57,193 nt of DNA from contig CADBBK010000015.1 of the NCBI GenBank assembly GCA_902792895.1, forward strand, positions 1 to 57,193, in the 5' to 3' direction. The position numbers and the translations under genes are program-made. Below the pieces are notes generated by a model that did not search any database, had not been told where the DNA came from, and saw nothing but the letters and a program-made list of their open reading frames with translations. Numbering within the stretch: position 1 is the stretch's first letter; every line of letters starts with the position of its first letter. Shown one piece after another: positions 6,191 to 44,234 of this stretch. Source of the stretch: an uncultured Bacteroidales bacterium. Lineage in GTDB: Bacteria; Bacteroidota; Bacteroidia; Bacteroidales; Muribaculaceae.

Positions 6191-6275
6191 TTTTTAGCTG
6201 TTAGCCATCAGCTATTAGCAGGCATCCGCCGAAAGCTAAAAGCTAAGTGCTATAAGCTAAGTGCTAAAAACTAAA
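6191..6275. repeat. Heptad inverted-repeat element A (susD-susE gap)
   Basis: Left arm of degenerate 7-mers (TTAGCTG, TTAGCCA, TCAGCTA, TTAGCAG), a short GC-rich middle, then a right arm of 7-mers (AGCTAAA, AGCTAAG, TGCTATA, AGCTAAG, TGCTAAA, AACTAAA). The arms are roughly complementary and could form a long imperfect hairpin in the susD-susE transcript. Each unit carries a stop codon on both strands. Confidence 0.8.
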
Positions 6276-6288
6276 TGACAATAAGAAC

Positions 6289-7479
6289 ATGAAAAAGATA
6301 TTTTTATCATCACTGATGCTGCTGAGCATGGCACTCGTGTTCACGGCTTGCGAGGATGACCGTGATTCCAATCCCACGCTGGTACAGCCCTCCACGTTCA
6401 AGCTGAACAACCCCGTGAACCCGATGGTTGACCTGGCCCTGTCCACGGTCATTCCCATGGCTTGGTCACAGCCCGACTTCGGTGGCTGGCCTGCTGCCTG
6501 TGAGTATCAGCTCGAGGTTTCGCACTTAAGCGACCCTAAAGAGTGGACCGTTTCGACCGAGATGGCTGCTGCCGACACCACCGGTGCAACCATTGCCAAC
6601 TATGCTGTGCTGAAATCGGTATATGCTGCCTGCAATGGCGACATGAATGTTGAGGACCTGAACAAGGCGTTGAACCGAATCCTGGCATGGGAAGAGGACA
6701 ATGTGCCCGAGAAGCAGACGGTGTATGTACGCTGCCGTGCTATCACTGCTGGCGCAGAGCCTGTTTACTCCAATGTGGTAAGCCTGGATGTGAATCCCTA
6801 CTATGTTGACCTCAGCGCTGAGGTTAGCGAGGAGATTGAGCTGTGGTACCTCATCGGTGCTTGCATCGGTGACGGTTCATGGGGCAACGATCCCGCTAAT
6901 GTGGGTAGCGCTCTCATCCCGATGTATCCCGTTTATGACACAGATGGCAGCTTGATCCCCGGTGAGATCCAGTATGTGGGCTACTTCCCCGCCGACCAGG
7001 GCTTCAAGCTCGTTCAGGTTCCCGGCGACTGGGCTGCACAGTGGGGCCAGGGCGACGCTGGCTACGTGAAGAATGACGGTGGCAGCAGTGACATCAAGCT
7101 TCCTGCCGACGGTTACTACATGATCCACCTGAACACCGCTACCGACGTGCTCACGATTGAGCCTTACGAGGGCGCTGTGGGTGTTTATACCCAGATTGCT
7201 ATGCCTGGTGATTATCAGGGTTGGAGCACTGCCGACAACCTGTTGAATCCCATGAGCACCGTGGTTGAGAACCATGACTGGTATCTGAAGAATGTGACCT
7301 ACGAGGACACTGGTCTCAAGTTTGCTGCCGACAACGATTGGGCTGTGAACTGGGGTGGTAAAGGCTTCCCGCATGGCCAGGGTTCTCAGGACGGTCCCAA
7401 CATCAATGTTACTGCTGGTACCTACCATGTATACTTCAACGATATCTTGGGCACCTACAACTTTGTCCCTGTCCAGTAA
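6289..7479 (+). CDS. susE: SusE-like starch-binding outer-membrane lipoprotein
   Basis: A 396-residue SusE/SusF-family surface lipoprotein that binds alpha-glucan and holds it near the SusCD complex; no enzymatic activity is expected. The lipobox ends at Cys21 (FTAC). The N-terminal part (about 30-170) resembles the SusE immunoglobulin-like domain. The C-terminal part carries two carbohydrate-binding modules in tandem, the first opening with WYLIGACIGDGSWGNDP near residue 187 and the second near 300 (MPGDYQGWS, HDWYLKNVTY). The two-module C-terminal region is closely similar to that of the next gene, so the pair arose by duplication. It is part of the sus operon, flanked on both sides by heptad-repeat elements. 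Assignment as SusE rather than SusF rests on gene order and two binding modules. Confidence 0.85.
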   Translation: MKKIFLSSLMLLSMALVFTACEDDRDSNPTLVQPSTFKLNNPVNPMVDLALSTVIPMAWSQPDFGGWPAACEYQLEVSHLSDPKEWTVSTEMAAADTTGATIANYAVLKSVYAACNGDMNVEDLNKALNRILAWEEDNVPEKQTVYVRCRAITAGAEPVYSNVVSLDVNPYYVDLSAEVSEEIELWYLIGACIGDGSWGNDPANVGSALIPMYPVYDTDGSLIPGEIQYVGYFPADQGFKLVQVPGDWAAQWGQGDAGYVKNDGGSSDIKLPADGYYMIHLNTATDVLTIEPYEGAVGVYTQIAMPGDYQGWSTADNLLNPMSTVVENHDWYLKNVTYEDTGLKFAADNDWAVNWGGKGFPHGQGSQDGPNINVTAGTYHVYFNDILGTYNFVPVQ

Positions 7480-7490
7480 ATAATAACATG

Positions 7491-7563
7491 CTGTTAGCTA
7501 TTAGCGATTAGCCGTTAGCCCAGCGCTAAAGACTAAGAGCTAATAGCTAGGAGCAAAAGCTAG
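7491..7563. repeat. Heptad inverted-repeat element B (susE-susF gap)
   Basis: Left arm TTAGCTA, TTAGCGA, TTAGCCG, TTAGCCC; right arm AGCGCTA, AAGACTA, AGAGCTA, ATAGCTA and further decayed units. It has the same architecture as element A: TTAGC arm, then GCTAA arm, period 7. It ends 10 nt before the susF-like start codon. Confidence 0.8.
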
Positions 7564-7573
7564 AAAATAAATT

Positions 7574-8650
7574 ATGAAGAAGATTTTATATATTGCTGCA
7601 ATGGGCTTGTTACTGGCAAGCTGTACCGAGGATTTCAAGGACTGGGCAGAGCCCCAGAACAATCCCCAGGGCGAAGTTATCACCTTCGGAACTGGTTCGG
7701 TAACTCCTGCAGGAGCAATCGACTTTGCTGAGGTGACTGAGGAGCGCGTTCAGGTGTGCAACATCACTCCTCCCGCTACTACCGACACGACCTATCACCC
7801 TGAGTACACGATCTATCTCAACGGCCAACCCTTTGTTATGGCTTCGGACGGCACGATGGATGCTGCTGAACTTTCTAACTATGTGGTTTCGCTCTTTGGC
7901 AAGGCTCCCGAAGCTCGCGTTCTCACTGCCCATGTGATGTGCGTGATGAGCAACGGCCTCACTGCTACCACTATCATGAGCGACCCGTTTGAGATCACCG
8001 TTATTCCCGCTCCCATCGCTGTGCCCGACTTGTGGTATCTGGTGGGTTCGTGCATCGGTGACGGTTCGTGGGGCAACGATCCCGCCAACGTGGGTACCGC
8101 TCTCATCCCCATGTACTGTGAGGCTGAGGACTTCTCAATCCTGAACTATGTCGGCTTCTTCCCCGCCGGCCAGGGCTTCAAGATCATCCACCGTCCCGGC
8201 AACTGGGATGAGCAGTGGGGTCAGGGTGCTGACGGCTACGTGAAGAACGATGGCGGCAGTGGCAACATCGAGGTGCCTGCCGACGGCTATTACGTGATTA
8301 CCTACGACATGAACGCCGAGACGCTGTCAGTCGAGCCCTATGATGGCTTGGTAACTGTTCTTAGCAAGGTGACCATGCCTGGCGGTTATCAGGACTGGAA
8401 CGTCGGTGGCAACGAAATGTCGCCCATGAGCACCGTGGTCGAGAACCATGACTGGATTGCTAAGGATGTGACCTTCACCGACAACACCGAGCTCAAGTTT
8501 GCTAACGGCACTTGGGCTGTAAACTGGGGCGCAACGACCTTCCCCGTGGGTGTCGGCACCCAGGGCGGCTCCAACATTCCCGTTGAGGCAGGAACCTACA
8601 CGATTGTGTTCAACGACATCATGGGCAGGTACTACTTCATCATGCAGTAA
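7574..8650 (+). CDS. susF: SusF-like starch-binding outer-membrane lipoprotein
   Basis: A 358-residue surface lipoprotein of the SusE/SusF family. The lipobox ends at Cys17 (LLASC). After a short N-terminal beta domain (about 30-150) come two carbohydrate-binding modules, the first beginning WYLVGSCIGDGSWGNDP near residue 155, the second with MPGGYQDWN near residue 268. Both are near-copies of those in the preceding gene. The Bacteroides thetaiotaomicron SusF has three such modules; this one has two, so the symbol is by position and family only. It is followed by a strong hairpin (8677-8704) and then by an operator and promoter for the amylase gene, so the amylase unit probably has its own control. 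Confidence 0.82.
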   Translation: MKKILYIAAMGLLLASCTEDFKDWAEPQNNPQGEVITFGTGSVTPAGAIDFAEVTEERVQVCNITPPATTDTTYHPEYTIYLNGQPFVMASDGTMDAAELSNYVVSLFGKAPEARVLTAHVMCVMSNGLTATTIMSDPFEITVIPAPIAVPDLWYLVGSCIGDGSWGNDPANVGTALIPMYCEAEDFSILNYVGFFPAGQGFKIIHRPGNWDEQWGQGADGYVKNDGGSGNIEVPADGYYVITYDMNAETLSVEPYDGLVTVLSKVTMPGGYQDWNVGGNEMSPMSTVVENHDWIAKDVTFTDNTELKFANGTWAVNWGATTFPVGVGTQGGSNIPVEAGTYTIVFNDIMGRYYFIMQ

Positions 8651-8676
8651 GCACTTGCATCAGTAGATTTTCCCGG

Positions 8677-8704
8677 CGGGGGCGTGCCAGCAGGCACGTC
8701 CCCG
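8677..8704 (+). terminator. Strong hairpin after susF
   Basis: A 12-bp stem (CGGGGGCGTGCC with GGCACGTCCCCG, one G-U pair) around an AGCA loop, 26 nt past the susF stop. No U-tract follows, so it may be a processing or stability hairpin, or a weak terminator separating susCDEF from the amylase unit. Confidence 0.55.
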
Positions 8705-8709
8705 CTGTT

Positions 8710-8721
8710 GCAATCGTTTGC
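8710..8721. promoter_or_regulatory. LacI-type operator upstream of the alpha-amylase gene
   Basis: GCAATCGTTTGC, the exact reverse complement of the operator before susC. It ends 57 nt before the amylase -7 box at 8779-8786, almost the same spacing as at susC and the MFS gene (56 nt each). Confidence 0.75.
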
Positions 8722-8778
8722 ACAATGCTAATTGGTTGAGTTTTTTTGTGAAAATGTGGTGGAGTGTTAGAATTTTGC

Positions 8779-8786
8779 TATATTTG
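8779..8786 (+). promoter_or_regulatory. Promoter -7 box of the amylase-GH53 unit
   Basis: TATATTTG fits TAnnTTTG and lies 31 nt upstream of the amylase ATG. There is no good -33 box (only TGTG at 8755). This is another reason to place the amylase start at 8818, because longer in-frame starts (8764) would lie upstream of the promoter. Confidence 0.6.
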
Positions 8787-8817
8787 CGCATATATCCAAC
8801 TAAAAAACCTGAGAGCA

Positions 8818-10893: not shown

Positions 10894-10923
10894 AAATAAT
10901 CTTATTGACAGGCAACTGACAAG

Positions 10924-12288: not shown

Positions 12289-12311
12289 CGGTTGATACTG
12301 TAACAGAAAAT

Positions 12312-12351
12312 CAGCAGCGGGATTTCATCAGGTGATGGAGTCCCGCTGCTG
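12312..12351. terminator. Bidirectional terminator-like hairpin between GH53 and methyltransferase genes
   Basis: An 11-bp perfect stem (CAGCAGCGGGA with TCCCGCTGCTG) and an 18-nt loop, midway between two convergent genes. There is no strong U-tract on either side. Confidence 0.6.
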
Positions 12352-12372
12352 TATCTTGGTACTGTGTAGAGG

Positions 12373-13002: not shown

Positions 13003-13024
13003 GATGGCTTTGCTTAGATTGCTG

Positions 13025-13032
13025 CAAAGATA
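13025..13032 (-). promoter_or_regulatory. Promoter of methyltransferase copy 1
   Basis: Reads TATCTTTG on the minus strand (TAnnTTTG), with a TTG 20 nt upstream (13053-13055). It decides the start codon of the gene below it. Confidence 0.65.
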
Positions 13033-13092
13033 CGGTTTTTTCATCGGTTAAGCAATAACCGATAACGATAATCGTAGAAAAGTAGCAGTAAT

Positions 13093-26699: not shown

Positions 26700-26753
26700 T
26701 TTAGCCTATGGTTAATGGTTGCCGGCTGATGTCGGCCATTAACTATTGGCTCT
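26700..26753. repeat. Inverted-repeat element C after ychF (heptad-like)
   Basis: The arms GTTAATGG (26711-26718) and CCATTAAC (26736-26743) are perfectly complementary, and outer AGCC and GGCT extend the hairpin. The left arm reads as 7-mers (TTAGCCT, ATGGTTA, ATGGTTG). It is a weaker match to the family than the others; it may also end ychF transcription. Confidence 0.6.
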
Positions 26754-28032: not shown

Positions 28033-29127
28033 CTAGATGTTGTCGTAGATTTCAGCCACCTGATCGGCGATTTTTTCCCAATCATACTTGCTCATGTCAT
28101 AGTCCATGCGCTGCAGGGGCTTACTGATGACGGCGTCAAGTTTGGCCGCCAGTGCATCGACGTCTCCCACCTGATGGTAGCACTCGGCATCAAGGCCCAC
28201 TTCCAGGCAGGCGGGAATGGCTGATGTGATGACCGGAAGCCTGTAGCTCATCGCCTCGAGCAGGGCAATGGGCAACCCCTCATGCGAGGAAGGCAGCGAA
28301 TAGCACAGTGCCCCGCTCAACAGGGCATGCAGTTTCTTGCCGCGGACAAATCCCGTAAGTACCACACCTTTGTCTCTAGCCGTCTGTTTGAGCGTCCTTG
28401 AGTAATTGTCTTCAAAGTCGGTGTCTCCGGCCAGCACCAGTTTCATACCATTCGTCAAGCCCTTGTCCTGCAATCGGGAGAAGGCCTCTACCAGGTCATG
28501 CAGGTGTTTCTCGGGCACAAACCGGCACATGCCGAGGACGTATTTCCCTTTCTCAATGCCCAGCTCCTCAAAATACTCCGGATAGTCGATGATTTCAGGC
28601 TCAGGCACGCCATTATAGATGAGGTGAACGTTTTTCGTCCTGCCGCAGCGCTCGGCAATGAGTTTCCTGATGACATCGCTGATGACAACCACATGGTCGG
28701 CATATCGGCATCCCAGCCATTCACCCAACCGAAGCATTTTCTTGGCAACGAAACCCCACTTGTCGCGGTCGTAATCAGGTCCGTGATGGGTAAAAACCAC
28801 CTTCAGCCCCAGGAGCTTGGCATACGGTACCAGCAGGGCTGGCCCGATGGAGTGAATGTGAAGCACGTCGGCCTTCATCCGCTTGGCCTGGTTGATGGCC
28901 CTAAACGTGTGGACGATAGCCTCGAAGGACTTCTTTTTGGGTGTCGCGATATCGATGAGGTGCACACCGTTCCACTCGGTGAGCGCGTCATGCACATAGC
29001 TCTTGCGCCTGATGATGGTCACCTCATGGCCTCGCGCGGCAATCCGCGGGAAGAGCTCCTCGCAGTGAGTCTCCACGCCACCCATGACGCCGGGTATGCC
29101 TCGTGTACCTGTTACTACTATCTTCAT
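28033..29127 (-). CDS. Glycosyltransferase family 4 protein
   Basis: A 364-residue GT4 glycosyltransferase. The N terminus IVVTGTRGIPGVMGGVETH is the motif of rhamnosyl/GlcNAc-type GT4 enzymes with a DUF1972-like domain. VLHIHSIGPALLVPYAKLLG and FTHHGPDYDRDKWG follow. The C-terminal donor site includes EGLPIALLEAMSYRLPV near residue 290. It is the last gene of a minus-strand group: CotH protein, radical SAM, acyltransferase, GT4. It is separated from the acyltransferase by a heptad element (29131-29178). Confidence 0.9.
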   Translation of the reverse strand: MKIVVTGTRGIPGVMGGVETHCEELFPRIAARGHEVTIIRRKSYVHDALTEWNGVHLIDIATPKKKSFEAIVHTFRAINQAKRMKADVLHIHSIGPALLVPYAKLLGLKVVFTHHGPDYDRDKWGFVAKKMLRLGEWLGCRYADHVVVISDVIRKLIAERCGRTKNVHLIYNGVPEPEIIDYPEYFEELGIEKGKYVLGMCRFVPEKHLHDLVEAFSRLQDKGLTNGMKLVLAGDTDFEDNYSRTLKQTARDKGVVLTGFVRGKKLHALLSGALCYSLPSSHEGLPIALLEAMSYRLPVITSAIPACLEVGLDAECYHQVGDVDALAAKLDAVISKPLQRMDYDMSKYDWEKIADQVAEIYDNI

Positions 29128-29130: not shown

Positions 29131-29178
29131 TTTTTAGCTCTTAGCGACGATTAACTCCTAACTCCTAACTATCTAAAG
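29131..29178. repeat. Heptad inverted-repeat element D
   Basis: TTAGCTC and TTAGCGA form the left arm; TTAACTC, CTAACTC and CTAACTA the right arm, period 7. It lies between an acyltransferase gene and a GT4 gene, both on the minus strand; its edge contains the TAG stop of the acyltransferase (29173-29175). Confidence 0.75.
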
Positions 29179-30153
29179 TCCAAAGCACATCTTCAGCCAC
29201 CTTGGGGCATATCGGTTGATGCCCATGGCTATCAGCGTCGGCACATAGAGACCGATAGCCACGCTCAGCAGCCACAATGGCACGAACAGCAGGTCGTTGT
29301 CCGTCTTCACATATAGCCATCGGATGGCCATCTGGAAGAAAATGCCCATCAGGAATATCTGGAACGTATAGTTCCTGAAACTGCTGAAAAGCTGTGGCAC
29401 AAATCTGGCTAGCATCAGGCACAGGGAGAACGAGAAGGCGATGCCTACGGCCGCTGGCACGATTTCCAGCGACTCGGGCAGCAGCCTCAGCACATTGCAG
29501 GCGACAAACAGCAGGGCTGTCAATGCCAACACCCAAATGTTGTCAAGATATCGGTGCCACTGATACTTGGAGCACAAGATGCCAGCCACAAAAAACGGCA
29601 TCATGTGGGTGAGGTTATACAGCTGGAAGTGAGTCAAGTGGGGTGGGGTGATGAGATGGAGCAGCACGGCAATGGCCAGTCCTGCTGCGGCAGCCGCCTT
29701 GCTGCTGGTCATCAGTTGATAAACCGGATAGAGCAGCATCAGCTCAAACAGCACCACGATAAACCACATTTCTCCCAATGGATTGGAACGGAACAGCACT
29801 AACGTGTTGACAATCTCCTCCATGTCCACCGGCCGGTGCATCCACTGCGGAAAAGCCAGTTTGAGCAGCGTTGTTGCCAGCGTAAAGGCCAGGAAGGGCA
29901 CAGCCAGGCGTTTGACCTTAGACACGAACATGTCCTGGTAAGGTTTTCTCCTGCCGATGCAAGTGTGGTAAAACAACCAGCCGCTGATGAAAATGAACAA
30001 CGGCATGTGGAACGTGTAAATCGTTTGCTCGATGGCGGTAGCGATGGGGGTGTTAGGGTCGCCGGGGATATTGGTCAGGCTGACATGCCCGATGACCACC
30101 AGCAGCATGCCCAGTCCCTGTACTACGGCCAGCCAATCGATTTTCTTCCCCAT
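29173..30153 (-). CDS. Acyltransferase-3-family membrane protein
   Basis: A 326-residue multi-pass membrane acyltransferase (acyltransferase-3 family), likely adding acetyl or another acyl group to a surface polysaccharide. The N terminus IDWLAVVQGLGMLLVVIGH carries the conserved His of the first helix, and FHMPLFIFISGWLFYH the second conserved block. Start at ATG 30153; a TTG two codons upstream is less likely. It lies 27 nt after the radical SAM gene on the same strand and precedes a GT4 gene, with element D between them. The stop codon is part of the repeat element's edge. Confidence 0.85.
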   Translation of the reverse strand: MGKKIDWLAVVQGLGMLLVVIGHVSLTNIPGDPNTPIATAIEQTIYTFHMPLFIFISGWLFYHTCIGRRKPYQDMFVSKVKRLAVPFLAFTLATTLLKLAFPQWMHRPVDMEEIVNTLVLFRSNPLGEMWFIVVLFELMLLYPVYQLMTSSKAAAAAGLAIAVLLHLITPPHLTHFQLYNLTHMMPFFVAGILCSKYQWHRYLDNIWVLALTALLFVACNVLRLLPESLEIVPAAVGIAFSFSLCLMLARFVPQLFSSFRNYTFQIFLMGIFFQMAIRWLYVKTDNDLLFVPLWLLSVAIGLYVPTLIAMGINRYAPRWLKMCFGL

Positions 30154-33013: not shown

Positions 33014-34114
33014 TTAACGCTGGGCGACGGCAATCATCTTGCGCGCGCAGGCAACGTTGGTCAGTTCTTTACCCTCCCTGACGCAGGCCTCGTGCATCTT
33101 GTCGTAGTTGTTGATGACTTGTATCAGGTCGTTCTCGTCCCAACCGTCGCGCACGATGCCCAGGCCCCGCTCGGCAATGAACGATGCCGTGGAGGGCTTG
33201 GTGTTGGTCACCACGGGAGTGCCGCTGGTGATGGCTTCGGCGATGGTGACCATGTTCAGGTCACTGCTCGTATCGACCAGCAGGGCGAGGGAGCGCCTTA
33301 AGGGCTCGGCCAACTGCTCATGGGGCATGAAACCGTGGAAGATGATGTTGTCGCCGACGCCCAATCGGGCCACCTGCTGCTCCAGTGCGGACCGTTGGTC
33401 GCCGTCACCGATGATGTCCAGGCGGTAATCCCGGTACGGCTCCTGTGCGACAAGACGGGCAAAGCGGTCGATGATGCGGTCCACCCGCTTGCGCTCCACG
33501 AGCTGCGACACCACCACGAATGCCTTGTCGTGCTCATCGCTGGGGTAGAGCACATGGGCATCGGTGCCATGATCCACAATCGTGCTGCTCACATGGCGGC
33601 TGTAACGGCCGATGAACTGCTGTGCCGGCTGGCTGCGGGGCACGATGGTCACATCGCGCATGATCAGCGGTAGCATCACGTTGTACCAGAAGCGTGACGG
33701 CAGCCTGAATAGCAGGCGCTGGTGCCGGTCCAGTTCCTGCCACAGCAGCAGTTTGCTGGTGGGGCAGACGCGGGCGGCAATCAACGACGGCACTTGGAAC
33801 GACTCGCTGGCAATGACCAGGTCATACTCGTCGCTGTGGTGCTTGAGCCACGAATGCATTCCGCGCGGCCAGGGCAGCAGCCATGGCTTGAACACCAGCG
33901 GCCACTTGCTGGGGAAATAGATGACCTGGAAGGGCAGGTCGTCATCGCTGCCCGTCGGCTTGAAGTCGGCCGACGCCAACAGGGTGACCTGATGCCCCAG
34001 CTCAACAAAACCCCGCGCGAAATTGCTGATCATGCAATCGCTGATGGATTCCTTGGTCTTGATGATGCCATGCTCGGCAGTCGATAGTATGCAGTTGATG
34101 ATGAGTATTTTCAT
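33014..34114 (-). CDS. Glycosyltransferase family 4 protein
   Basis: A 366-residue GT4-type glycosyltransferase. The start MKILIINC at 34114 fits the family; an upstream in-frame ATG (34138) adds lysines from the heptad-element region. The N-terminal domain has FARGFVELGHQVTLLAS. The C-terminal domain has AFVVVSQLVERKRVDRIIDRFA near residue 210, NIIFHGFMPHEQL near 270 and the donor stretch NMVTIAEAITSGTPVVTN near 305. It is the last gene of the unit that starts at the beta-helix gene. Specificity unknown. Confidence 0.87.
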   Translation of the reverse strand: MKILIINCILSTAEHGIIKTKESISDCMISNFARGFVELGHQVTLLASADFKPTGSDDDLPFQVIYFPSKWPLVFKPWLLPWPRGMHSWLKHHSDEYDLVIASESFQVPSLIAARVCPTSKLLLWQELDRHQRLLFRLPSRFWYNVMLPLIMRDVTIVPRSQPAQQFIGRYSRHVSSTIVDHGTDAHVLYPSDEHDKAFVVVSQLVERKRVDRIIDRFARLVAQEPYRDYRLDIIGDGDQRSALEQQVARLGVGDNIIFHGFMPHEQLAEPLRRSLALLVDTSSDLNMVTIAEAITSGTPVVTNTKPSTASFIAERGLGIVRDGWDENDLIQVINNYDKMHEACVREGKELTNVACARKMIAVAQR

Positions 34115-34120
34115 TCTTTT

Positions 34121-34178
34121 CTTTTTAGCTGTCAGCAATTTCTAACTCCCAACTCCTAACTCCTAACTCCTAACTCTC
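34121..34178. repeat. Heptad inverted-repeat element E
   Basis: TTAGCTG and TCAGCAA are followed by TTTCTAA, CTCCCAA and three CTCCTAA units, unbroken period 7. It fills the gap between an acyltransferase and a GT4 gene; the acyltransferase stop (34170-34172) is one of the TAGs of the repeat. Confidence 0.8.
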
Positions 34179-35147
34179 CAAGGGGACATAGAACTGTCGC
34201 TTGAGGAAAATCAGACGGCTCAGCAGCAGCTTGTCGCACAGCCAGGCACTGGCCAGGCATCCACCGACGACGATGGTGAGTGCCACAACCAGGAAACTGA
34301 TGGCCGTGGGGTCAAAACTGAACCAGGGCGCCAGTTGCTTGGTGAGCACCGTGAAAATCGGCGAGAACACGACTATGGCCAGCGAATTGCGCCCTAAGTA
34401 GCGGAAGAAGTTGCTCAAGGCCCGTGGGCAGATGGCGTAGCATGCCAGGAGCAGACTGATGACCAGCACGGTGATGGCAACGCCGGCGAGCGAACCGCTG
34501 TCGTAGTTCTCGGGGAACCAGAACAGCACAATGAGCGGCAACAGGGCCAACCACGACGGGGTGATGACTTCCATGAACCGCTTGCCGAGGCGCAGGATGA
34601 ACACGCCGATGATAAAATAGATGACGTTGCTCCAAGCCAGCCCCTCGATGGCCCATGTGAGCCCGTAGAGTACCACCCCCATCAGCGCGAGCCCTCCCAT
34701 TCCGCGCAGCTTCAGGAGACGGTACACCACCCAATAGACTGCGGTGCTGATGACCAGCGTGTGCAGGTACCAGTAGGGGCCGGTGGGCTGGGTAGCGATT
34801 CTCATGAGGAAACTGCCTGCAGTCAGCTGCCCAATGGCGTTGTGCGCCCCGAGGTTGCCGCCCAGGTAATACTGGATGACGATGTATAACGCCTCGAACA
34901 GGACATAGGGGACCGCAATGCGCAAGAGCCCGTGCACAAACTGCCCCGGGCGCTTCTCGACGTTGGCCAGATAGCCCGAGATGACGAGAAATGCCGACAT
35001 GTGGAAGGTATATACGGCATTGCGCAGCACGGGATAGGTCTGTTCAATCAGTGCCAGATGGAAAATCACCATCAGCACGATGAAGATGCCCTTCAGGTAA
35101 TCCAACTGCGGTATCCGCTGCTGTGTCGTGGCGTGCTTATCGGACAT
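34170..35147 (-). CDS. Acyltransferase-3-family membrane protein
   Basis: A 325-residue multi-pass membrane acyltransferase. The N-terminal helix IPQLDYLKGIFIVLMVIFH has the conserved His, and TFHMSAFLVISGYLANVEKRP the second family block. It starts inside the 3' end of the beta-helix gene (11-nt overlap), so the two are translationally coupled. Its C terminus (PLES) and stop run into heptad element E. Probably O-acylates a sugar of the local polysaccharide. Confidence 0.86.
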   Translation of the reverse strand: MSDKHATTQQRIPQLDYLKGIFIVLMVIFHLALIEQTYPVLRNAVYTFHMSAFLVISGYLANVEKRPGQFVHGLLRIAVPYVLFEALYIVIQYYLGGNLGAHNAIGQLTAGSFLMRIATQPTGPYWYLHTLVISTAVYWVVYRLLKLRGMGGLALMGVVLYGLTWAIEGLAWSNVIYFIIGVFILRLGKRFMEVITPSWLALLPLIVLFWFPENYDSGSLAGVAITVLVISLLLACYAICPRALSNFFRYLGRNSLAIVVFSPIFTVLTKQLAPWFSFDPTAISFLVVALTIVVGGCLASAWLCDKLLLSRLIFLKRQFYVPLES

Positions 35148-36840: not shown

Positions 36841-36880
36841 CGCTGTATTGTGTAATGAATTTATCCATTAGATGAATTTA

Positions 36881-36912
36881 CAAAGGTAATGTTTATTCTT
36901 GAAAGCACCAAA
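36881..36912 (-). promoter_or_regulatory. Promoter of the beta-helix/acyltransferase/GT4 unit
   Basis: On the minus strand TTTG (36909-36912), 20 nt, TACCTTTG (36881-36888): complete Bacteroidota promoter, 40 nt before the start codon. Confidence 0.75.
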
Positions 36913-36971
36913 ATCTTACAGCGCTTGCCCGCTAGCGGCGCAAATTTTACGTCTCTACAAAAACTTTTTAC

Positions 36972-36979
36972 TACCTTTG
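36972..36979 (+). promoter_or_regulatory. Promoter -7 box of the GT2 gene
   Basis: TACCTTTG, 12 nt upstream of the first ATG of the GT2 gene, implying a very short leader if the first ATG is used. No clear -33 box. Confidence 0.55.
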
Positions 36980-36991
36980 CCGCAGTTTTAA

Positions 36992-37966
36992 ATGACAATG
37001 ACTGCCACACCAGCTATGAACCTACCCTTGATATCCATCCTCATCCCCGCCTACAATGCGGCCCCCTTCCTGAGGCGCAGTGTGGGCAGCGCCCTTGCAC
37101 AGACCTATGCCAACATCGAGGTAGTGATTGTGGACGACGGTTCGACCGACGACACCCCGGCCATTGCCGACCAGTTGGCGGCCGATGACCGGCGCATCCG
37201 CGTCGTCCACCAGGAGAACCGTGGCCTGGCCGAGGCACGCCGCAGCGGCATCAAGGCCGCCACGGCCGACTACATCTGCCATCTGGATGCCGATGACGAG
37301 CTGTTGCCCGATGCCCTCGCTTTCCTCTTTGGCAAGATGGCCGACCATCAGCTGGATATCGTGTATGGTTCGTTGATTAAGGTGATCGGTGATAAGACGT
37401 TCGAGGTGGCACACCCCATTGAGGGAGTGCTCACAGGTGACGAGTACCTGCGGTTCCTGTTTGACCAGCGCTGCATGGTCGCCCAGGGCGAATACATCTG
37501 CCGCCGTGATGCTTGGACCGACGACATCTTCCCCCCGCATGACAGGACGCTCCCAAGCGAGGATGTGCTCATCAACATCTGCCTGAGCGCACACCTCGAC
37601 AGGGTAGGGCTCTTCAACAAGCCGGTGATGAAGTATTACTATGTGCCCACGTCGCTGTCATCTACCAACAGGCTGTCAAGCATGGACAACTGGGAGAAGT
37701 ACTTCGTGTTGTTGGAAAAGAATCTGAGGGAGCGGGGAAAACTCGAGTCGCTCGAGCGCGAAGTGCTGTGCATGAAACTTGACAGGCTGGCCTTCTATGT
37801 TTATCCCCTGGACACCAGCCGCCCCTGGGTGAAGGCAGCCCTCCAGGACCGCCGCTTCAAGTTGCCGCGCCGTTATGCAGTGCTGCAATGGCTGCTGCAC
37901 TATCCCCGGTTGTGCCACTGGTGCATCGTCAACAACCGGCGTCTGAAAAAGGTTTTAAGCTTTTAG
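36992..37966 (+). CDS. Glycosyltransferase family 2 protein
   Basis: A 324-residue inverting GT-A glycosyltransferase. The classical N-terminal GT2 blocks are present: SILIPAYNAAPFLRRSVGSA, VVIVDDGSTDDTPAI, NRGLAEARRSGIKAA and the metal-binding HLDADDEL (DxD). The start may be at 36992 or eight codons later (MNLPLIS, 37016); the short predicted leader does not decide it. The last codons (KVLSF) and the TAG stop are made by the TTTTAGC units of heptad element F. It is the only plus-strand gene in the 28.0-44.1 kb stretch. Sugar unknown. Confidence 0.88.
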   Translation: MTMTATPAMNLPLISILIPAYNAAPFLRRSVGSALAQTYANIEVVIVDDGSTDDTPAIADQLAADDRRIRVVHQENRGLAEARRSGIKAATADYICHLDADDELLPDALAFLFGKMADHQLDIVYGSLIKVIGDKTFEVAHPIEGVLTGDEYLRFLFDQRCMVAQGEYICRRDAWTDDIFPPHDRTLPSEDVLINICLSAHLDRVGLFNKPVMKYYYVPTSLSSTNRLSSMDNWEKYFVLLEKNLRERGKLESLEREVLCMKLDRLAFYVYPLDTSRPWVKAALQDRRFKLPRRYAVLQWLLHYPRLCHWCIVNNRRLKKVLSF

Positions 37967-38033
37967 CTTTTAGCTTTTAGCGACCCCTAAACTTCTAACT
38001 TCTAACTCCTAACTCCTCACTGCTAACTCCTCC
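37951..38033. repeat. Heptad inverted-repeat element F between convergent genes
   Basis: Left arm TTAAGCT, TTTAGCT, TTTAGCT, TTTAGCG; right arm ACTTCTA, ACTTCTA, ACTCCTA, ACTCCTC, ACTGCTA, ACTCCTC. The left arm contains the stop of the GT2 gene (TAG, 37964-37966) and the right arm encodes the last residues and stop of the Wzy-like gene (38009-38011). Confidence 0.82.
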
Positions 38034-39337
38034 TCCTCACTGTTCTCGTCGGGCAGCCAGGAGCAGGCGACGAATCCGTAGATGATGATGGCGAAGAACG
38101 GGTCGCGCAGCGATTCGGCATAGAACAGGTTCATGCCGATGAGCAAGGCCATGAAAATCTGCAGGTTCATGTCCCTGATGGAACAGCCGTCGGGATGACG
38201 GAAGAACAGCGAGACGAGATACCCGAGGAACAGGAGCAGTCCCACGACACCCAATTGCAGATAAATATGTATCAGATAGGGCATGGTGCCGATTAGGTAC
38301 CACTCGTAATGGTCGTAGAACTCCGAGTGGTCCATCTTGGTTCCGCCCTTGAAATGGCCCACGCCGAATCCCAACGGGATATGCCCGGGGTTGTCCTCTT
38401 CAAACATGGGCAGCAACAGGAACTTGGTGAGTCGTCCGAGGTCGGCAACACCAGTCTCGTCGTTGTCCAGACTCCATTCCACATCCTCCTCGGCCTTCTC
38501 GACATCGCTCAAGACATATTCTACCAGGTAATCCTCGCTGAAGATGTCGATCTCGTCGGTCGTGCTGCTCACGTCGCCTTTATAGGTAATCTTGTATGTG
38601 GAGTAACCCAGGGCGAACAGCACCACCAATATGGGCAGCGAGATGATGGCACGCTTGTAGATGCGCTTGTCCAGGGGCATGAGCAGGATGAAGTAGATCA
38701 CGAGCAGCACAAAGCTGATTTTGGTCTCGTTGAAGAAGGTGGGCGTGAGCAGCAGCACATACTTGAAGTTGTTGATGATGGAGCCCGCAAAATCCCGCTG
38801 GTCGATGCGCTTGTGCATCAGGTAGAACGAGATGATGTAAATCAGCATCGAGATGGTGCCCGAGTACCAGTTGCCCAACGAGCCGCCGACATGGTCGTCG
38901 GCACCATAGGCGATGAACTGAAAGGCGATGCAAGGCACCTGCAGCCACAAGAAAATCTCCAGATTCTTGTCCAGCGTCTTGATGAAATGCTCACGCCGCT
39001 GGGCATCGTCCATGAAGTACCTGAAAATCGGGTAGCAGAACATCAAACCGATGAACACGCGCATACCGTTGGCGGCGAAGAACGGCGACAGGCCGTTGAA
39101 CACCACGCTGCTGCCAAAACTGATTAGCGCCAGCGAGAAGATGAACAGGATGTCGGTGCGGTGACGCAGGCACAATAGACCCAGTAGCGCCAGCATGGCG
39201 TCACAGGCCAGCATGATATAGGTGCGCACCGATTCCACCTCTGGGATGAATTCATCACAGATAAAGCCAATGGTGGCCAGTACCCAAAACACACCGAAGA
39301 AGGCGCGCTTGATGAGTATGGACTTGGTGACTCGCAT
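38009..39337 (-). CDS. Wzy-like polysaccharide polymerase / O-antigen-ligase-type membrane protein
   Basis: A 442-residue protein with about eleven membrane segments and a large extracytoplasmic loop (about residues 255-345) rich in acidic residues, the layout of Wzy polymerases and O-antigen ligases. It would join repeat units in the periplasm. Gene context (49 nt after the Wzc-like kinase gene, same strand as Wza and Wzx genes) supports polymerase. Its C terminus (EENSEEEELAVRS) is partly encoded by the GGAGTTA units of heptad element F, so the natural C terminus may once have been different. Sequence motifs of this family are weak, hence moderate confidence. Confidence 0.7.
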   Translation of the reverse strand: MRVTKSILIKRAFFGVFWVLATIGFICDEFIPEVESVRTYIMLACDAMLALLGLLCLRHRTDILFIFSLALISFGSSVVFNGLSPFFAANGMRVFIGLMFCYPIFRYFMDDAQRREHFIKTLDKNLEIFLWLQVPCIAFQFIAYGADDHVGGSLGNWYSGTISMLIYIISFYLMHKRIDQRDFAGSIINNFKYVLLLTPTFFNETKISFVLLVIYFILLMPLDKRIYKRAIISLPILVVLFALGYSTYKITYKGDVSSTTDEIDIFSEDYLVEYVLSDVEKAEEDVEWSLDNDETGVADLGRLTKFLLLPMFEEDNPGHIPLGFGVGHFKGGTKMDHSEFYDHYEWYLIGTMPYLIHIYLQLGVVGLLLFLGYLVSLFFRHPDGCSIRDMNLQIFMALLIGMNLFYAESLRDPFFAIIIYGFVACSWLPDENSEEEELAVRS

Positions 39338-39386
39338 CCTAGCCTTGTGTTACCGATTCTCGACTGTCAGCCAGCGGGTTGAGACC

Positions 39387-41711
39387 TCACTCCTTGTCCT
39401 GGCCGTAACCGTAGCCGTAGCCCTGCGACATCTTGGGATTGGTATCGTTGAGCACCACTGCCACATTGTTCAGCTGGCGACGGGCCATGGCATTGTTCAT
39501 GTAGCGGATCAGGCTGCGCTTGGTATAGTTCGAGCGGGTGACATAGACGGTGAGATTGGCAAACCGCGTCAGCGAATAGGTGTCGCTGACCATAGCGATG
39601 GGTGCCGAGTCGATGATGACGTAGTCGTAACGCTCCTTGAGCTGGTTGATGAGGTCCTCGACGCGGGTGGTCAGCAGCAGCTCCGACGGGTTGGGCGGAA
39701 TGGTGCCGCCGACGATGATGTCAAAGTTCTCCACCTCGCTGCTGTGCTGGATGACGTCATCGACCTGTACGTTGGGCTTGGCCAGGTAGGCCGTGACACC
39801 AGGCGTCTCGTTGAGGATGAGCATCTGGGCCAGCTTGGGGCTACGGATGTCCATGCCCACGAGTACCACACGCTTACCCAGTAGCGAGAATGACGAGGCC
39901 AGGTTGGAGCTGATGAACGACTTGCCCTCGCCCGAAATTGAGCTGGTGACCAGGATGACCTTGTCGTCGTCGGTGGGCAGCATGAACTGGATATTGTTGC
40001 GCAGCAGGCGGAACAATTCGACTATCGACGAGGACTTGCCCTCCTTGACCACGAGTTGTGAACGATGGCGGTTGTGGCAGATTTCGCCCACGACGGGAGC
40101 CTTGCTTATGGCCTGCAGGTCCTCCTGCGACGAGAACTTGGTAGTAAACAGGTTCTTGAAGAACAGCAGCACCATCGGCAGTATCAGGCCGGCGATGAGG
40201 GCCATGAAGTAGATCTTGAACTTTGCGGGCTTCACCGGCTGGATCGACGCATAGGCGTGGTCCACAACTTTGCCCTTGGGCGTGGTGGCAGCCAGCACCA
40301 GAGAGTTCTCCTCGCGTTTCTGCAACAGGAAGGTGTACAGGGAGTTCTGGATGCCCTGCTGGCGGTACAGGTCTTGGGCTTCGCGCTCGATGCCGGGCAC
40401 CTTGCCCATGTCGCTCTTGGTCGAACTGGTCTGGCCTTGGGCCTGGCTCAACTGCATGTTGATGCCCTTGATGGACGAGTCAACGCCCTTGATGATATTC
40501 TGGTGCATGGACTCGATCTGGTCATCGATGCGCTTGAGGGCCATGTTGTCACCCTTGGCCGACTGCTCCAGGTCCTGACGCTTGACAAGCAGGTTGTTGT
40601 AGGCCTTGATGGCTCCTGATGCCGCGCTCGAGTCAACGGCAAAGGGGATGTAGCTGTGCTTGTTGGCGGGGTCGCTGACAAACTCCTTGACCATCGTCAG
40701 CAGGCGCTTGTTGGTTTCCAGCTTGATGATGGCACGGTCAGCCATCTCCTGCTTGGCCATTGCGTCCTTCATCTGCAGCTCAACATTGATCATGTTGTTG
40801 CGGCGCCTGAAGGCTTCGATATCGGCCTCGCTGCTGGTCAGACCCTTGTAGATGAGGGCAAGACGTTCGTCGATGAACTTGGCCGTGTTGATGGCCTGTT
40901 CGTCCTTCTCCTGCTGTCCGCGCTCGTTGTACAGGTTGATGAGGGTGTTGAGCACATCTTTACCACGGCTCTTGACAGTCTCGTTGATGGTCAGGTTGAT
41001 ACCGTTGGCCTTCTTGGTGATCAGTTTGACCTTGATTTTCTTGTTCAGACTCTGGCCGCAATACTGGGTGCCCAGGAGTGTCGCCTTGATGTGGCAGGCC
41101 TTTTCGGGTTTGTATTTGTCGGTGGGGCGCACGGTGAAGGTGCCGTAGCTGGTCTTGAACGTCGCGGGCAGCTTTGCGCCCTTGATGTTAGCCAGCTTGT
41201 CACGCCCGCTCTCGGCCTTGATGTTGGCCAGTCCTTGCTTGTTCACGTCGATCTTGAACGTTACCGACGACAGCGTGTCGAACATCTCCTCGGGGGCGAT
41301 GACCTCGATGGGCGTGCTGTTGTAGTGGTCCTTGACGGGTTTGAACCACCCCTTATCCTCGGTGTAGCGGCGGTTGAGCTTGAGCTGCTTGGCCACCTCG
41401 GTGCACAGTTCCTGTGACGAGAACACGATCATCTCGTCCTCGACCTTGCCGCCGCCGTTCATGAGTTTCATGCTCTTGAGCAGGTTGGCGCCGGCGCTGG
41501 AACTGTTGTCTTCCTGTGCGACGAGGACCACGGCCGTGACTTCATAGACGCGGTTGGTGGTCTTCAAGTAGTATAATGCGAGGCAAGCACAGGCGATGAG
41601 TGACAACAGGAATAGCCACCAGTATCGTTTGTACTTGCTGAAGAAGGCGCCAAAGTCAAACGATGGCTCCTCTTGCTGTACCGGAATGTTGGTTGTATTG
41701 TTTTCTGCCAT
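39387..41711 (-). CDS. Wzc-like polysaccharide co-polymerase and tyrosine autokinase
   Basis: A 774-residue inner-membrane protein that controls chain length and export of the polysaccharide. It has an N-terminal Wzz domain with a first membrane helix near residue 30 (WWLFLLSLIACACLALYYL) and a long periplasmic coiled-coil part. A second helix lies near 500-520 (YFMALIAGLILPMVLLF). The cytoplasmic BY-kinase follows: Walker A SSISGEGKS (Lys597), Walker A' VVLVGMDIRSPKL and Walker B VIIDSAP (Asp701). The tail ends in a tyrosine cluster (QGYGYGYGQ), the usual autophosphorylation site. It lies between the Wza-like and Wzy-like genes. Confidence 0.94.
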   Translation of the reverse strand: MAENNTTNIPVQQEEPSFDFGAFFSKYKRYWWLFLLSLIACACLALYYLKTTNRVYEVTAVVLVAQEDNSSSAGANLLKSMKLMNGGGKVEDEMIVFSSQELCTEVAKQLKLNRRYTEDKGWFKPVKDHYNSTPIEVIAPEEMFDTLSSVTFKIDVNKQGLANIKAESGRDKLANIKGAKLPATFKTSYGTFTVRPTDKYKPEKACHIKATLLGTQYCGQSLNKKIKVKLITKKANGINLTINETVKSRGKDVLNTLINLYNERGQQEKDEQAINTAKFIDERLALIYKGLTSSEADIEAFRRRNNMINVELQMKDAMAKQEMADRAIIKLETNKRLLTMVKEFVSDPANKHSYIPFAVDSSAASGAIKAYNNLLVKRQDLEQSAKGDNMALKRIDDQIESMHQNIIKGVDSSIKGINMQLSQAQGQTSSTKSDMGKVPGIEREAQDLYRQQGIQNSLYTFLLQKREENSLVLAATTPKGKVVDHAYASIQPVKPAKFKIYFMALIAGLILPMVLLFFKNLFTTKFSSQEDLQAISKAPVVGEICHNRHRSQLVVKEGKSSSIVELFRLLRNNIQFMLPTDDDKVILVTSSISGEGKSFISSNLASSFSLLGKRVVLVGMDIRSPKLAQMLILNETPGVTAYLAKPNVQVDDVIQHSSEVENFDIIVGGTIPPNPSELLLTTRVEDLINQLKERYDYVIIDSAPIAMVSDTYSLTRFANLTVYVTRSNYTKRSLIRYMNNAMARRQLNNVAVVLNDTNPKMSQGYGYGYGQDKE

Positions 41712-41736
41712 GACCTAATGTGTGATAATCGGGGGA

Positions 41737-42552
41737 TTATTTGGATGCCGAAACCAGTGCGATGATCAGCGAGACGATGACCGACGCACTGCTCACTACG
41801 GTCGAGATGACCGAGAGCTTGAAAGCATTGTTTTGGTTATACTTGGAATTGTCAATCTTGATGGAGTTGGGCTCGACGTAAACAATGTCGTTCTGCTTGA
41901 GATAGAAGTAGGGATTGGCAAAGATGCCCGAATCCGACAGGTCGAGGCGCTGATAATGGCGCTGACCGTTCTCGTCGCGGATGACATACACGCGGTCGCG
42001 CTTGGCAAACTCGGTCAGGTCGCCGCAACTGGCAATCGCATCAAGCACGGTGAAATGCTCGCGGCCGGTGTGCACGCGCTGCGGGGTCTGCACCTCGCCC
42101 ATCACATCGACGCTGAAGTTGACGATGTCCACTCGCACATGCGGGTCCTTCACGTCCTTGCTGACCATTGCCGAGATGTCATGGGCAATCTGGGCCGTCG
42201 TCTTGCCTTTTACAAACAAGCGTCCCAGTACGGGCATGACAACGTAGCCCTCCTCGTCGACGATGTAGGTCTGGGTGCGGGGCTGGCTACTCGAACGGAT
42301 GGCACCCCGTGTGGCGGGGTTGTCCATCGGCAGGTTGTAGACGGCCGTTGCCTCGGGAGCAGCTGAGGTCACTGCGATAACCAGTTCGTCATCGGGTTGG
42401 ATGGTCAGTGAGTAATTGCCCGGCGTTGAGGGCAGGGTGCCGCTGGGTGCATCGGGCATGTTCTTGAAGTAGGCGAGGTTGTTATCCTTCGTCGAGGAGC
42501 ATGACAACAGCAACGCCGCTGCCATCACGGTTATAAGTAATCTTGATTTCAT
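41737..42552 (-). CDS. Wza-like polysaccharide export lipoprotein
   Basis: A 271-residue outer-membrane polysaccharide export protein. The lipobox ends at Cys18 (LLLSC). A Poly_export domain (about residues 45-130, PGNYSLTIQPDDELVIAV; GYVVMPVLGRLFVKGKT) precedes an SLBB-type beta-grasp segment (about 140-215, DVMGEVQTPQRVHTGREHF). A C-terminal membrane helix (about 245-268) is typical of the family. The start at 42552 is chosen for the lipoprotein signal; an in-frame start ten codons upstream is less likely. It lies 25 nt before the Wzc-like gene. Confidence 0.93.
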   Translation of the reverse strand: MKSRLLITVMAAALLLSCSSTKDNNLAYFKNMPDAPSGTLPSTPGNYSLTIQPDDELVIAVTSAAPEATAVYNLPMDNPATRGAIRSSSQPRTQTYIVDEEGYVVMPVLGRLFVKGKTTAQIAHDISAMVSKDVKDPHVRVDIVNFSVDVMGEVQTPQRVHTGREHFTVLDAIASCGDLTEFAKRDRVYVIRDENGQRHYQRLDLSDSGIFANPYFYLKQNDIVYVEPNSIKIDNSKYNQNNAFKLSVISTVVSSASVIVSLIIALVSASK

Positions 42553-42607
42553 ACGTTTGTGACTATAATAGTATTTATACACACTATTAAACGAGTAAGG
42601 TCGGGAA

Positions 42608-44059
42608 TTATTTTGTCAAGCCGTGTGTTTTGGTGATTTTTGATACCAGCATGTCGCGAATTTCCTTGCCGCAACTGCATGCAATCACCGCCAGTGCGGC
42701 GGCCATATATGCCAGGTCGATCCATGCCGAATGGCTGAAATAGAAGGGCAGTCCGCTCAACAGCATGACGGCAATGGGTATCAGGGTGCGGGGTGAGAAC
42801 TTGAGGATGAAATAGCGCTTCATGTCAAACCAGCGGTAGATGACCAGCACCAGGTAGGTCACCAGGATGGTAGTGATGACGCCGTAGATGCCCAACGGCT
42901 TGATGAGCAGGAAATTGAGCGTCACATTGACGGCTGCAGCGAGGGTGATGGCGGGCAGGATGCGCTTGGTGTCCTTGGCGCACTGGTAGCCCATGTCAAA
43001 GAAGGCCACCACGGCAAACACCACTGCCGACAATCCCAGCGGATAGATGTAGTTGAGACTCTCGCTGTAGGCATCGGCGACCAGCCAGCCGTAATTGACC
43101 TTGAGCATGAACACATAGCCCACCAGGATGCCCGACATCAGGAAGATGTAGCTGTTGAACATCTTGGAGAAGAAGCGGTTGCGGTCAGGACTGTTGTACT
43201 GCATGATGGCGGTTTCCTGCCATGCCTGGTAGAAGATGATGGAAATGGTGGAGATCACGCCGGTGAAGCGCACCGCAATGGCATACACGCCATTCACGTC
43301 AAGTCCCAGGAAATGGCTGATGAAGAAACGGTCGCTGCTGCCGGTGAGCCACCAGCACAACGAACCCGGCAGCAGGGGCAGGGTATAGCGCAGGATGTCG
43401 TGAGTGACCTCGCCGAAGTCGATGTGCCAGCGGGTGTTGCGGGTAATCAGGTGCACCTTTGCCTCGACGCAGACCAGGGCCAGTATCCTCGCCAGGATGT
43501 TGGACAGGAAGATGCCCTTGATGCCCCAGCCCAGTCCGGCCACAAATAGGATGCTGAACACGCCGATGCCTAGCGCCGAGATGATGCCAACAGCGACAAA
43601 GGCACGGTTGTTGCCCAGTCCGCGGAACACCTGCGAATAGACCTCCTGCAGCGACATGGCCACCAGCAGCATCAGCACATAGCCGAGATACTGGATGTTG
43701 GTGAACAGGGCCAGCGCTATGGTCACGAGGACCGAGAGCGACAATGTACTGAGCAGGGTGTGGGAAACAAAGGTGACGATGCGTTGGCGTTGCGTGTCGT
43801 TGTCCGAGTCAAGCAGGAACCTGAACGCGCCGTCGCGCAGCATCAGCGTGACAAAGGGGATGAGCAACAGGCACACCTGCAGGCAGTTCTCGTAGTAGCC
43901 GAAGTGGGAGGTGTCGTGCACAAAATAGGTGTACATCGGCGCCATCATGAAGGTGATGAGCTTGGAGCCGATGTTGCCTATAGCATAAATGCCGATGTCC
44001 TTGATAAACTTGGAACCTCGGCTGCTTTTTGACCCTGTGTCACTGTTGTTAACGGTCAT
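42608..44059 (-). CDS. Wzx-like polysaccharide flippase
   Basis: A 483-residue membrane protein with about 14 hydrophobic segments, of the polysaccharide-transporter (PST/MATE-like) family, which flips lipid-linked repeat units across the inner membrane. The N-terminal FIKDIGIYAIGNIGSKLITF and central PLLPGSLCWWLTGSSDRFFI are family-like. The start at 44059 (MTVNNSD) is set by the promoter -7 box at 44079-44086; the in-frame ATG at 44089 would lie upstream of it. It heads the minus-strand run Wzx, Wza, Wzc, Wzy, the core export machinery of the locus. Confidence 0.9.
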   Translation of the reverse strand: MTVNNSDTGSKSSRGSKFIKDIGIYAIGNIGSKLITFMMAPMYTYFVHDTSHFGYYENCLQVCLLLIPFVTLMLRDGAFRFLLDSDNDTQRQRIVTFVSHTLLSTLSLSVLVTIALALFTNIQYLGYVLMLLVAMSLQEVYSQVFRGLGNNRAFVAVGIISALGIGVFSILFVAGLGWGIKGIFLSNILARILALVCVEAKVHLITRNTRWHIDFGEVTHDILRYTLPLLPGSLCWWLTGSSDRFFISHFLGLDVNGVYAIAVRFTGVISTISIIFYQAWQETAIMQYNSPDRNRFFSKMFNSYIFLMSGILVGYVFMLKVNYGWLVADAYSESLNYIYPLGLSAVVFAVVAFFDMGYQCAKDTKRILPAITLAAAVNVTLNFLLIKPLGIYGVITTILVTYLVLVIYRWFDMKRYFILKFSPRTLIPIAVMLLSGLPFYFSHSAWIDLAYMAAALAVIACSCGKEIRDMLVSKITKTHGLTK

Positions 44060-44078
44060 TGTCCTTTTTTTGCGGGTG

Positions 44079-44086
44079 CAAAGGTA
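44079..44086 (-). promoter_or_regulatory. Promoter -7 box of the wzx-wza-wzc-wzy run
   Basis: TACCTTTG on the minus strand, 19 nt before the Wzx-like start codon; it rules out the longer reading frame. Confidence 0.65.
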
Positions 44087-44168
44087 CAAAATTATTGAGT
44101 TTTTACATGCTCTTTCGGCAAATGTTTGTAATTTCGCAAGAAAAATGAGGCTGAGTGGGCTTCAGATA

Positions 44169-44234
44169 TTAGGCTTTAGGCTTTAGATGTTAGGCTTTAG
44201 GTGGCATGCGCCATCAATGGATCTAAAGCCTAAA
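44169..44234. repeat. Heptad inverted-repeat element G
   Basis: Five left units (TTAGGCT, TTAGGCT, TTAGATG, TTAGGCT, TTAGGTG), then the right arm TCTAAAGCCTAA (44222-44233), a perfect 12-bp inverse of TTAGGCTTTAGA (44176-44187). It ends 12 nt upstream of the acyltransferase start codon at 44247. Confidence 0.82.

Follow-up and report, generated by a model that had tools for sequence, protein, structure and literature searches.

A 57,193-nucleotide (nt) stretch of DNA from an uncultured Bacteroidales bacterium of the Muribaculaceae (contig CADBBK010000015.1, assembly GCA_902792895.1; hereafter the window) carries at its gene boundaries short elements built of 7-nt units, with TTAG-bearing units in one arm and CTAA-bearing units in the other, and raises the question of what such elements are, how they come to lie between genes and what keeps them there. 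They appear to belong to a larger population of dispersed non-coding palindromes, with left arms of TNAGNNN units and complementary right arms of NNNCTNA units, often around the tip GGCATCCGC. These elements have been copied round the genomes in several sequence dialects. They enter or replace spacers that run from the stop codon of one gene to the start codon of the one behind it, for the most part where both genes point the same way, and a junction that holds an element in one species can lack it in a relative. Within an element, the left arm pairs with the right. We consider it probable that the elements are mobile palindromes, similar to repetitive extragenic palindromes (REP) and miniature inverted-repeat transposable elements (MITE), which persist between cistrons as hairpins whose shape and place are what matters.

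The heptad pattern in the window and its genus

The window (GC content 0.55) comes from a 3.2-Mb genome in 58 contigs (G000), the genus of which is represented by more than 60 genomes; a comparison set from named genomes was formed by 80 relatives of the window YchF, mostly Bacteroidales, the best at 86% (uncultured Bacteroidales RUG12782). An earlier note on this DNA had described seven heptad elements. With an element defined as at least four TTAG or CTAA units in 7-nt register, six of these (at 6191, 7491, 29131, 34121, 37951 and 44169) stood and the seventh, at 26700-26753, did not. Shuffled sequence of the same composition did not match this count: a mean of 0.01 elements (maximum 1) was obtained both when the window was shuffled 100 times with a Markov-1 model and when its 4,516 intergenic bases were shuffled 200 times. 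A genome-wide search of G000, as the note had proposed, returned 296 + 191 = 487 matches to TTAGNNNTTAGNNNTTAG versus 3 + 1 = 4 for the reversed control, and the pattern is also present elsewhere, with 0 to 614 matches in each of 36 genomes of the same genus and 0 to 24, many near control counts, in 24 genomes that belong to the same order but to other families. Rfam at gathering score identified four tRNAs only in the window and no match for the elements, which lie as follows.

6191..6275, plus strand: two-armed element between the susD-like (4508-6160) and susE-like (6289-7479) genes
7490..7563, plus strand: two-armed TTAGC-dialect element between the susE-like and susF-like genes
26700..26753, plus strand: palindrome after the ychF stop codon, outside the unit rule for heptad arrays
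29131..29178, minus strand: two-armed element between an acyltransferase gene (29173-30153) and a glycosyltransferase gene (28033-29127), both on the minus strand
34121..34178, minus strand: CTAACTCC heptad array between an acyltransferase gene (34170-35147) and a glycosyltransferase gene (33014-34114), both on the minus strand
37951..38033, no strand assigned: two-armed element between the convergent genes 36992-37966 (plus) and 38009-39337 (minus)
44149..44245, plus strand: 97-bp stretch with a TTAGGCT / GGCATGCGCC / CTAAAGC element, directly before the start codon of an acyltransferase gene

The first two elements lie within a starch-utilisation-like operon (1331-8650) of SusC, SusD, SusE and SusF homologues identified by Pfam, and the one at 6191 consists of a left arm of TTAGCTN units, the tip GGCATCCGC at 6221-6229 and a right arm of GCTAANN units. 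Stop codons are overlapped by the elements at 29131 (acyltransferase gene 29173-30153) and 34121 (acyltransferase gene 34170-35147), and those of both convergent genes fall within the element at 37951-38033. The word GGCATCCG stands directly upstream of the 26700 palindrome, past the ychF stop codon, and the counterpart of this spacer in G061 is different and heptad-like. The acyltransferase gene behind the last element probably starts at the ATG at 44247, in frame with a longer open reading frame (ORF) from 44187. Further along, 48369-54004 holds what we take, from gene order and protein starts only, to be GldK/L/M/N-like genes.

Stretches totalling 1.61 Mb were sampled from eight genomes, with genes called mechanically as the longest non-overlapping ATG ORFs; those of G000 and G028 were picked partly for known pattern matches, and densities are not genome averages. 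The arm polarity described for the window held in this sample, as arms of at least three units stood in the order T[ACT]AG then CT[AGT]A 21 times and never in the reverse order, with like neighbouring arms occurring twice as ++ and twice as --. TTAG is one form of a wider unit, TNAGNNN (TTAG, TCAG, TAAG), and by the TTAG rule 18 of 27 elements are one-armed. The dialects (TCAG, TAAG, TTAGC and others) differ among genomes and among elements within one genome. The location at gene boundaries was likewise upheld, with 0.90 elements per kb of spacer between co-directional genes, 0.92 between convergent genes and 0.28 between divergent genes (75 of 767, 22 of 171 and 9 of 141 junctions, respectively).

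The 7-nt period, too, was borne out, 7 and its multiples being the dominant intergenic repeat period. Tandem Repeats Finder gave 7 as the commonest short period in the sampled DNA, with arrays that were intergenic throughout in G000 (26), G033 (9 of 9) and G035 (10 of 10) and in 34 of 36 cases in G028. In the intergenic DNA of these four genomes, self-similarity at lag 7, which recurs at lags 14 and 21, marked 31-107 segments per 100 kb, and lags 3-6 and 8-10 marked none except in G028 (lag 6, 4; lag 8, 16; lag 9, 8); lag-7 segments inside ORFs numbered two, both in G028. In 78 named loci, mostly Bacteroidales, lag 7 gave 11.4 and none of the other lags from 3 to 13 exceeded 5.4, and 12 of 80 named loci contained a lag-7 segment. 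Heptad arrays of (ACTAATC)n and (TCAATGG)n were observed in other Bacteroidales, in metagenome-assembled genomes of Prevotellaceae and Bacteroides sp. (L125:53-244, L092:11105-14526).

Near the elements, GCGGATGCC/GGCATCCGC is the commonest 9-mer among GC-rich words (15 occurrences, tied with the heptad word CCTAACCCC), with a density per 100 kb of 103 near elements, 6.3 in other intergenic DNA and 3.2 in coding DNA. The GGCATCCGC tip accompanies several dialects and is also found in non-coding stretches without clear heptads.

The units had been proposed to place stop codons in all six frames. This was true of 41 of 61 elements of 20-60 nt and is frequent but not universal. G028 has further heptads, such as AATGCAC (four arrays), in which every frame is free of stop codons, as read by eye. 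Stop-bearing frames averaged 5.1 in the 61 elements versus 3.9 in their own dinucleotide shuffles, and the stop-codon idea has mild support. Stop-codon insulation as the sole reason for the elements was rejected because of the heptads without stops.

Dispersed copies and insertion

The shared design had looked like the result of selection acting on the pattern, not of recent copying. That view was not supported, as at least two dialects have plainly been copied, with up to 96% identity, unrelated flanks and empty orthologous sites. The figures below are distinct places among the best 14-15 matches per genome, neither copy numbers nor totals; palindromes match on both strands, and raw match counts were not used as copy counts.

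With the 80-bp TCAG element of G061 as query, 44 of 61 genomes gave a match. It was found at 15 or more separate places each in G009, G061, G036 and G077 (in G009, for example, the best 15 of 121 candidates), the best copy outside G061 and G036 among the matches listed being 96% identical over 78 bp, in G009. Some genomes rich in TCAG matches score weaker, and the matches listed for G015 and G011 do not extend beyond the right arm. In G009, fifteen copies can be aligned over their full length and have sharp ends, unrelated flanks and a common tip. A profile search of the sequence examined recovered 30 unique full copies from ten genomes, all of them 2-20 nt upstream of a start codon (called by the first-ATG rule for 27 and by the susE start for three at susE) and in a single orientation, defined as the strand with the better score. 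The upstream stop codon lay at -2 to +27 nt in 26 of the 28 copies with an upstream gene within 300 nt. No target-site duplication was detected in these 30 copies, in which the longest flank match averaged 3.70 versus 3.67 in shuffles (p = 0.43). In TCAG copies such as those of L244, L247 and L249, the left-arm AGTYNTC varies at two positions and the right-arm ACTGAAA is nearly constant.

The 107-bp TAAG element of G006 has matches in 40 of 61 genomes and occupies at least 14 separate places each in G007 and G009 and, among the matches listed, seven in G000; of 27 copies in the sequence examined, 25 adjoin an open frame of at least 80 codons within 40 nt. A single fixed orientation, true for the TCAG copies and false for the TAAG copies, was rejected as a general rule. 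The TTAGC type of 7490-7563 matches 7 of 61 genomes, and its single close full-length copy stands at the same susE|susF junction in G079, with 89% element identity despite a SusE that is merely 63-65% identical.

Comparison of orthologous junctions with and without an element, another proposal of the earlier note, found both states, since junctions filled in some relatives are empty in others. The place of the 6191 element holds TCAG-dialect elements in G061, G036, G033, G077 and G032, and the syntenic G061 contig has an empty site for the element at 44169. AATGA at 44144-44148 and 44246-44250 brackets the 44149-44245 stretch, which may represent a 5-bp target repeat or chance. The suggestion of a non-autonomous element that targets gene ends gained support. 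With the structure conserved from dialect to dialect, both processes, copying and selection on shape, may be at work.

Movement would call for a trans-acting enzyme, most probably of a kind that does not duplicate the target site. Y1 transposases are present in 19 of 20 genomes searched, element-rich and element-poor alike. Inspection of 12 PF01797 loci with flanks of about 1.5 kb found no TNAG heptad array at 11 and one array at the other (L162). On contig C30 of G000 (L231:2400-3560), a 321-aa Y1 (DHLH..YIHDNP) transposase-like gene has the same GC-rich palindrome, GGCCGCGGCAGAGCCGCAGCAC..., on both sides, and is likely a REP-transposase unit with its own repeat; an extra 137 kb of G000 entered only the analysis of this gene and the TCAG and TAAG copy searches.

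Arm pairing, orthologous junctions and the persistence of the hairpins

Pairing arms of one design, claimed earlier for the window elements, were evident when the arms of orthologous spacers were exchanged. In 72 spacers of at least 60 nt, own arms gave a mean of -30.0 kcal/mol, compared to -17.4 kcal/mol for arms exchanged among species within one junction and -16.7 kcal/mol across junctions, and own-arm energy was below swapped in 70. A chimera control with a re-optimised centre reached -20.0 kcal/mol, with own arms lower in 67 of the 72. As own arms outpair swapped arms, pairing is kept across dialects; the data may fit pairing of DNA or of RNA, selected or inherited from the mode of element origin.

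Four junctions were compared in 30 genomes each, out of 59 and 55 with a match, of which some were dropped for a missing neighbour gene or anchor (hbd|bcd, 1; bcd|etfB, 1; susD|susE, 5; susE|susF, 0). At susE|susF the spacer is long (at least 50 nt) in 24 of 30 genomes, and all 24 fold with z <= -3, as TAAG, TCAG or TTAGC heptad hairpins or, in eight species, as GC-rich hairpins. Long spacers make up 26 of 29 at hbd|bcd, where 20 of the 26 fold with z <= -3, and 17 of 29 at bcd|etfB, where 14 of the 17 do so and the other 12 measure 15-43 nt. At susD|susE an element stands at one place in 6 of 25 readable species, with 6 of 6 long spacers folding with z <= -3, and the spacer is shorter than 50 nt in 19. 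The share of long spacers varies among the four junctions (chi-square p = 2e-6, species taken as independent). Median pairwise identity of the long spacers is 0.56-0.57 at susE|susF, hbd|bcd and bcd|etfB and 0.86 at susD|susE. GGAGG is found in 9 of 12 short bcd|etfB spacers versus 0 of 17 long ones.

The GC-rich hairpins at susE|susF (e.g. GGGCGGGC..GCCCGCCC) were seen in G082, G025, G033 and G032, with further ones in G073, G063, G071 and G001 (the eight loci being L058, L062, L060, L065, L066, L076, L077 and L078). At bcd|etfB of G017 (L317), a 16-nt GGAGG spacer is duplicated, yielding a 43-nt spacer.

Under the reading that we favour, the elements would be transcribed as intercistronic RNA hairpins in the operon mRNA, and at certain junctions selection would retain a hairpin of any dialect, shape and place being what matters. 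Such a hairpin may separate translation of the neighbouring cistrons, or mark or protect an RNA end left by partial termination or by processing. A more specific proposal, which we hold tentatively, is that the junction hairpin is a position-conserved, sequence-interchangeable operon part, resupplied or replaced by mobile heptad families and displacing a short spacer that carries a Shine-Dalgarno-like GGAGG motif.

A number of observations weigh against a role for shape and place, or against the generality of the pattern. Counted per junction, depletion at divergent spacers is weaker (9.8% co-directional, 12.9% convergent, 6.4% divergent), and G028 alone supplies five of the nine divergent cases. 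Many elements have a single heptad arm, several of which fold poorly, and G003 and G012 live with almost no elements. Hairpins are common in such spacers generally: of 188 co-directional spacers of 60-180 nt that lack lag-7 arrays, 120 were tested as controls, and 35 of these also fold with z <= -3. The chi-square overstates independence because the species are related, and apparent conservation is inflated because the four junctions were picked for a known element in some genome. The TCAG copies are not all independent, since 7 of the 30 come from the two sus junctions in several species; one of the 30 also has a long open frame upstream on the other strand. TAAG copies have no orientation bias (12 on the sense side, 14 antisense, one in both, two neither). 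RNA folds were stronger in sense for 54 and in antisense for 41 of 95 (p = 0.22; Wilcoxon 0.054), and RNA-level selection is not demonstrated because the two do not clearly differ. Finally, in the loci inspected, a Y1/RAYT transposase as element neighbour received no support, and no enzyme that might move the elements was linked to them.

The elements might instead be purely selfish palindromes that survive only where they are least harmful, after stops and away from promoters, and have no host function. The depletion per kb of promoter-holding divergent spacers, the range from hundreds of matches to none among species of one genus and the insertion of the TAAG type in both orientations all agree with this alternative. 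We nevertheless judge it somewhat unlikely, as it does not predict uneven junction occupancy, unrelated hairpins at the same junction or pairing across dialects, although insertion hot spots could mimic these. Slippage growth in situ of heptanucleotide microsatellites, with arms copied by template switching, would explain why period 7 dominates intergenic tandem repeats and why one-armed and very homogeneous arrays occur, but the recurrence at unrelated sites of similar 78-bp copies that share a tip, empty orthologous sites and a polarity of 21 to 0 make it improbable as the origin of the elements; slippage may still edit unit numbers after insertion and may account for one-armed arrays.

Intrinsic transcription terminators, possibly two-way, are suggested by the strong hairpins and by the convergent pairs that carry elements. 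This we seriously doubt, given that the arms are AT-rich and that A-rich sequence and a start codon, not a U tract, come after them (by eye; no terminator scan was run), and given that most elements lie between co-directional genes. Least probable is an RNA-binding protein as reader of the heptad units, an alternative that draws on the TCAG right arm (AACTGAN) at 2-20 nt before starts, like most TAACTGA sets of one Beggiatoaceae genome in the sections drawn on of PMC4679880, and on one copy, L217, that includes TAACTGATAACTGA. Against it stands that the unit sequence varies among species and among junctions of one genome. RRM (PF00076) proteins, one candidate, taken up from work on RbpB (PMC11697453), had hits in 0 of 20 genomes from the genus, with 2 of 14 control genomes positive, and their role in reading UNAG units was rejected; no search was made for the candidates of PMC4679880, which are S1, cold-shock and CsrA proteins.

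If mobile palindromes retained for shape and place are the right description, hairpins in operon spacers can be kept while their sequence is swapped wholesale, and sequence-conservation searches would miss them for that reason. The junk-or-parts question on extragenic palindromes would also become testable, as the same junction is naturally empty, or holds unrelated hairpins, in sister species. Should the interchangeable-part proposal be true as well, mobile repeats would be a standing supply of operon-tuning parts, with protein ratio set by shape and place and not by sequence.

Comparison with known repeat systems

Tandem intergenic repeats of 7 nt are known from cyanobacteria as STRR, which to our knowledge have not been described as paired hairpin arms. 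GTTAGGC units resemble the GTTRRRY of integron attC sites. A word and phrase search of open-licence PubMed Central found no title or abstract on paired heptad hairpins in Bacteroidales.

REP are described, in the sections consulted of PMC3733652, as short high-copy extragenic palindromes located mainly between co-directional or convergent genes, near stop codons and sometimes supplying a TAG stop. The present elements are likewise palindromic, high-copy and extragenic, with a location pattern that is the same in kind and no target duplication seen. They differ in length, at about 78 bp (TCAG) and 107 bp (TAAG) compared to 20-40 for REP, in having arms of 7-nt units and several dialects per genus, and in a downstream edge that is also near a start codon. 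The TCAG copies start with AGT and mostly end with CTGA or similar, and visual inspection of 15 aligned copies and of the 30 full ones showed no GTAG/CGTC foot. The TnpA-REP subclass 2.6 with 'atypical secondary structures' comprises, by its description in the passages used from PMC6006769, repeated structures in Bacteroidetes without a GT[AG]G foot; the heptad elements would differ from that subclass in not lying beside Y1 genes, apart from one heptad array at 1 of the 12 loci inspected. MITE share terminal inverted repeats, a non-coding nature and multiple copies with the present elements, but their target-site duplication was not seen in the 30 TCAG copies. The BrickBuilt MITE of Porphyromonas gingivalis has, according to the part of PMC4596501 consulted, a 23-nt unit, lies 49-591 nt from coding sequences and numbers 19 copies in ATCC 33277; it too is intergenic, occurs in Bacteroidales and holds a tandem repeat within an inverted-repeat element.

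TAACTGA heptamers, in the sections drawn on of PMC4679880, are direct repeats in Beggiatoaceae, Cyanobacteria and some Bacteroidetes, which in the principal genome of that study usually stand a few nt ahead of a start codon; they are mainly of one sequence, with other heptamers beside some, and no secondary structure is predicted for them by themselves. They resemble the present elements as intergenic tandem units of 7 nt, and the TCAG right arm is nearly the same heptamer. Unlike the direct arrays of TAACTGA and STRR, the elements described here have paired opposite arms (21 to 0; pairing 70 of 72), though one-armed arrays exist.

The combination of heptad arms, dialects and stop-to-start placement was not seen in the descriptions consulted of REP, atypical REP-like, TAACTGA or BrickBuilt repeats. 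The elements fall outside REP on tag and length and outside MITE on target duplication, and the likeness in behaviour stands. If our reading is true, it connects REP-like repeats with the start-codon heptamer repeats of Beggiatoaceae, Cyanobacteria and Bacteroidetes.

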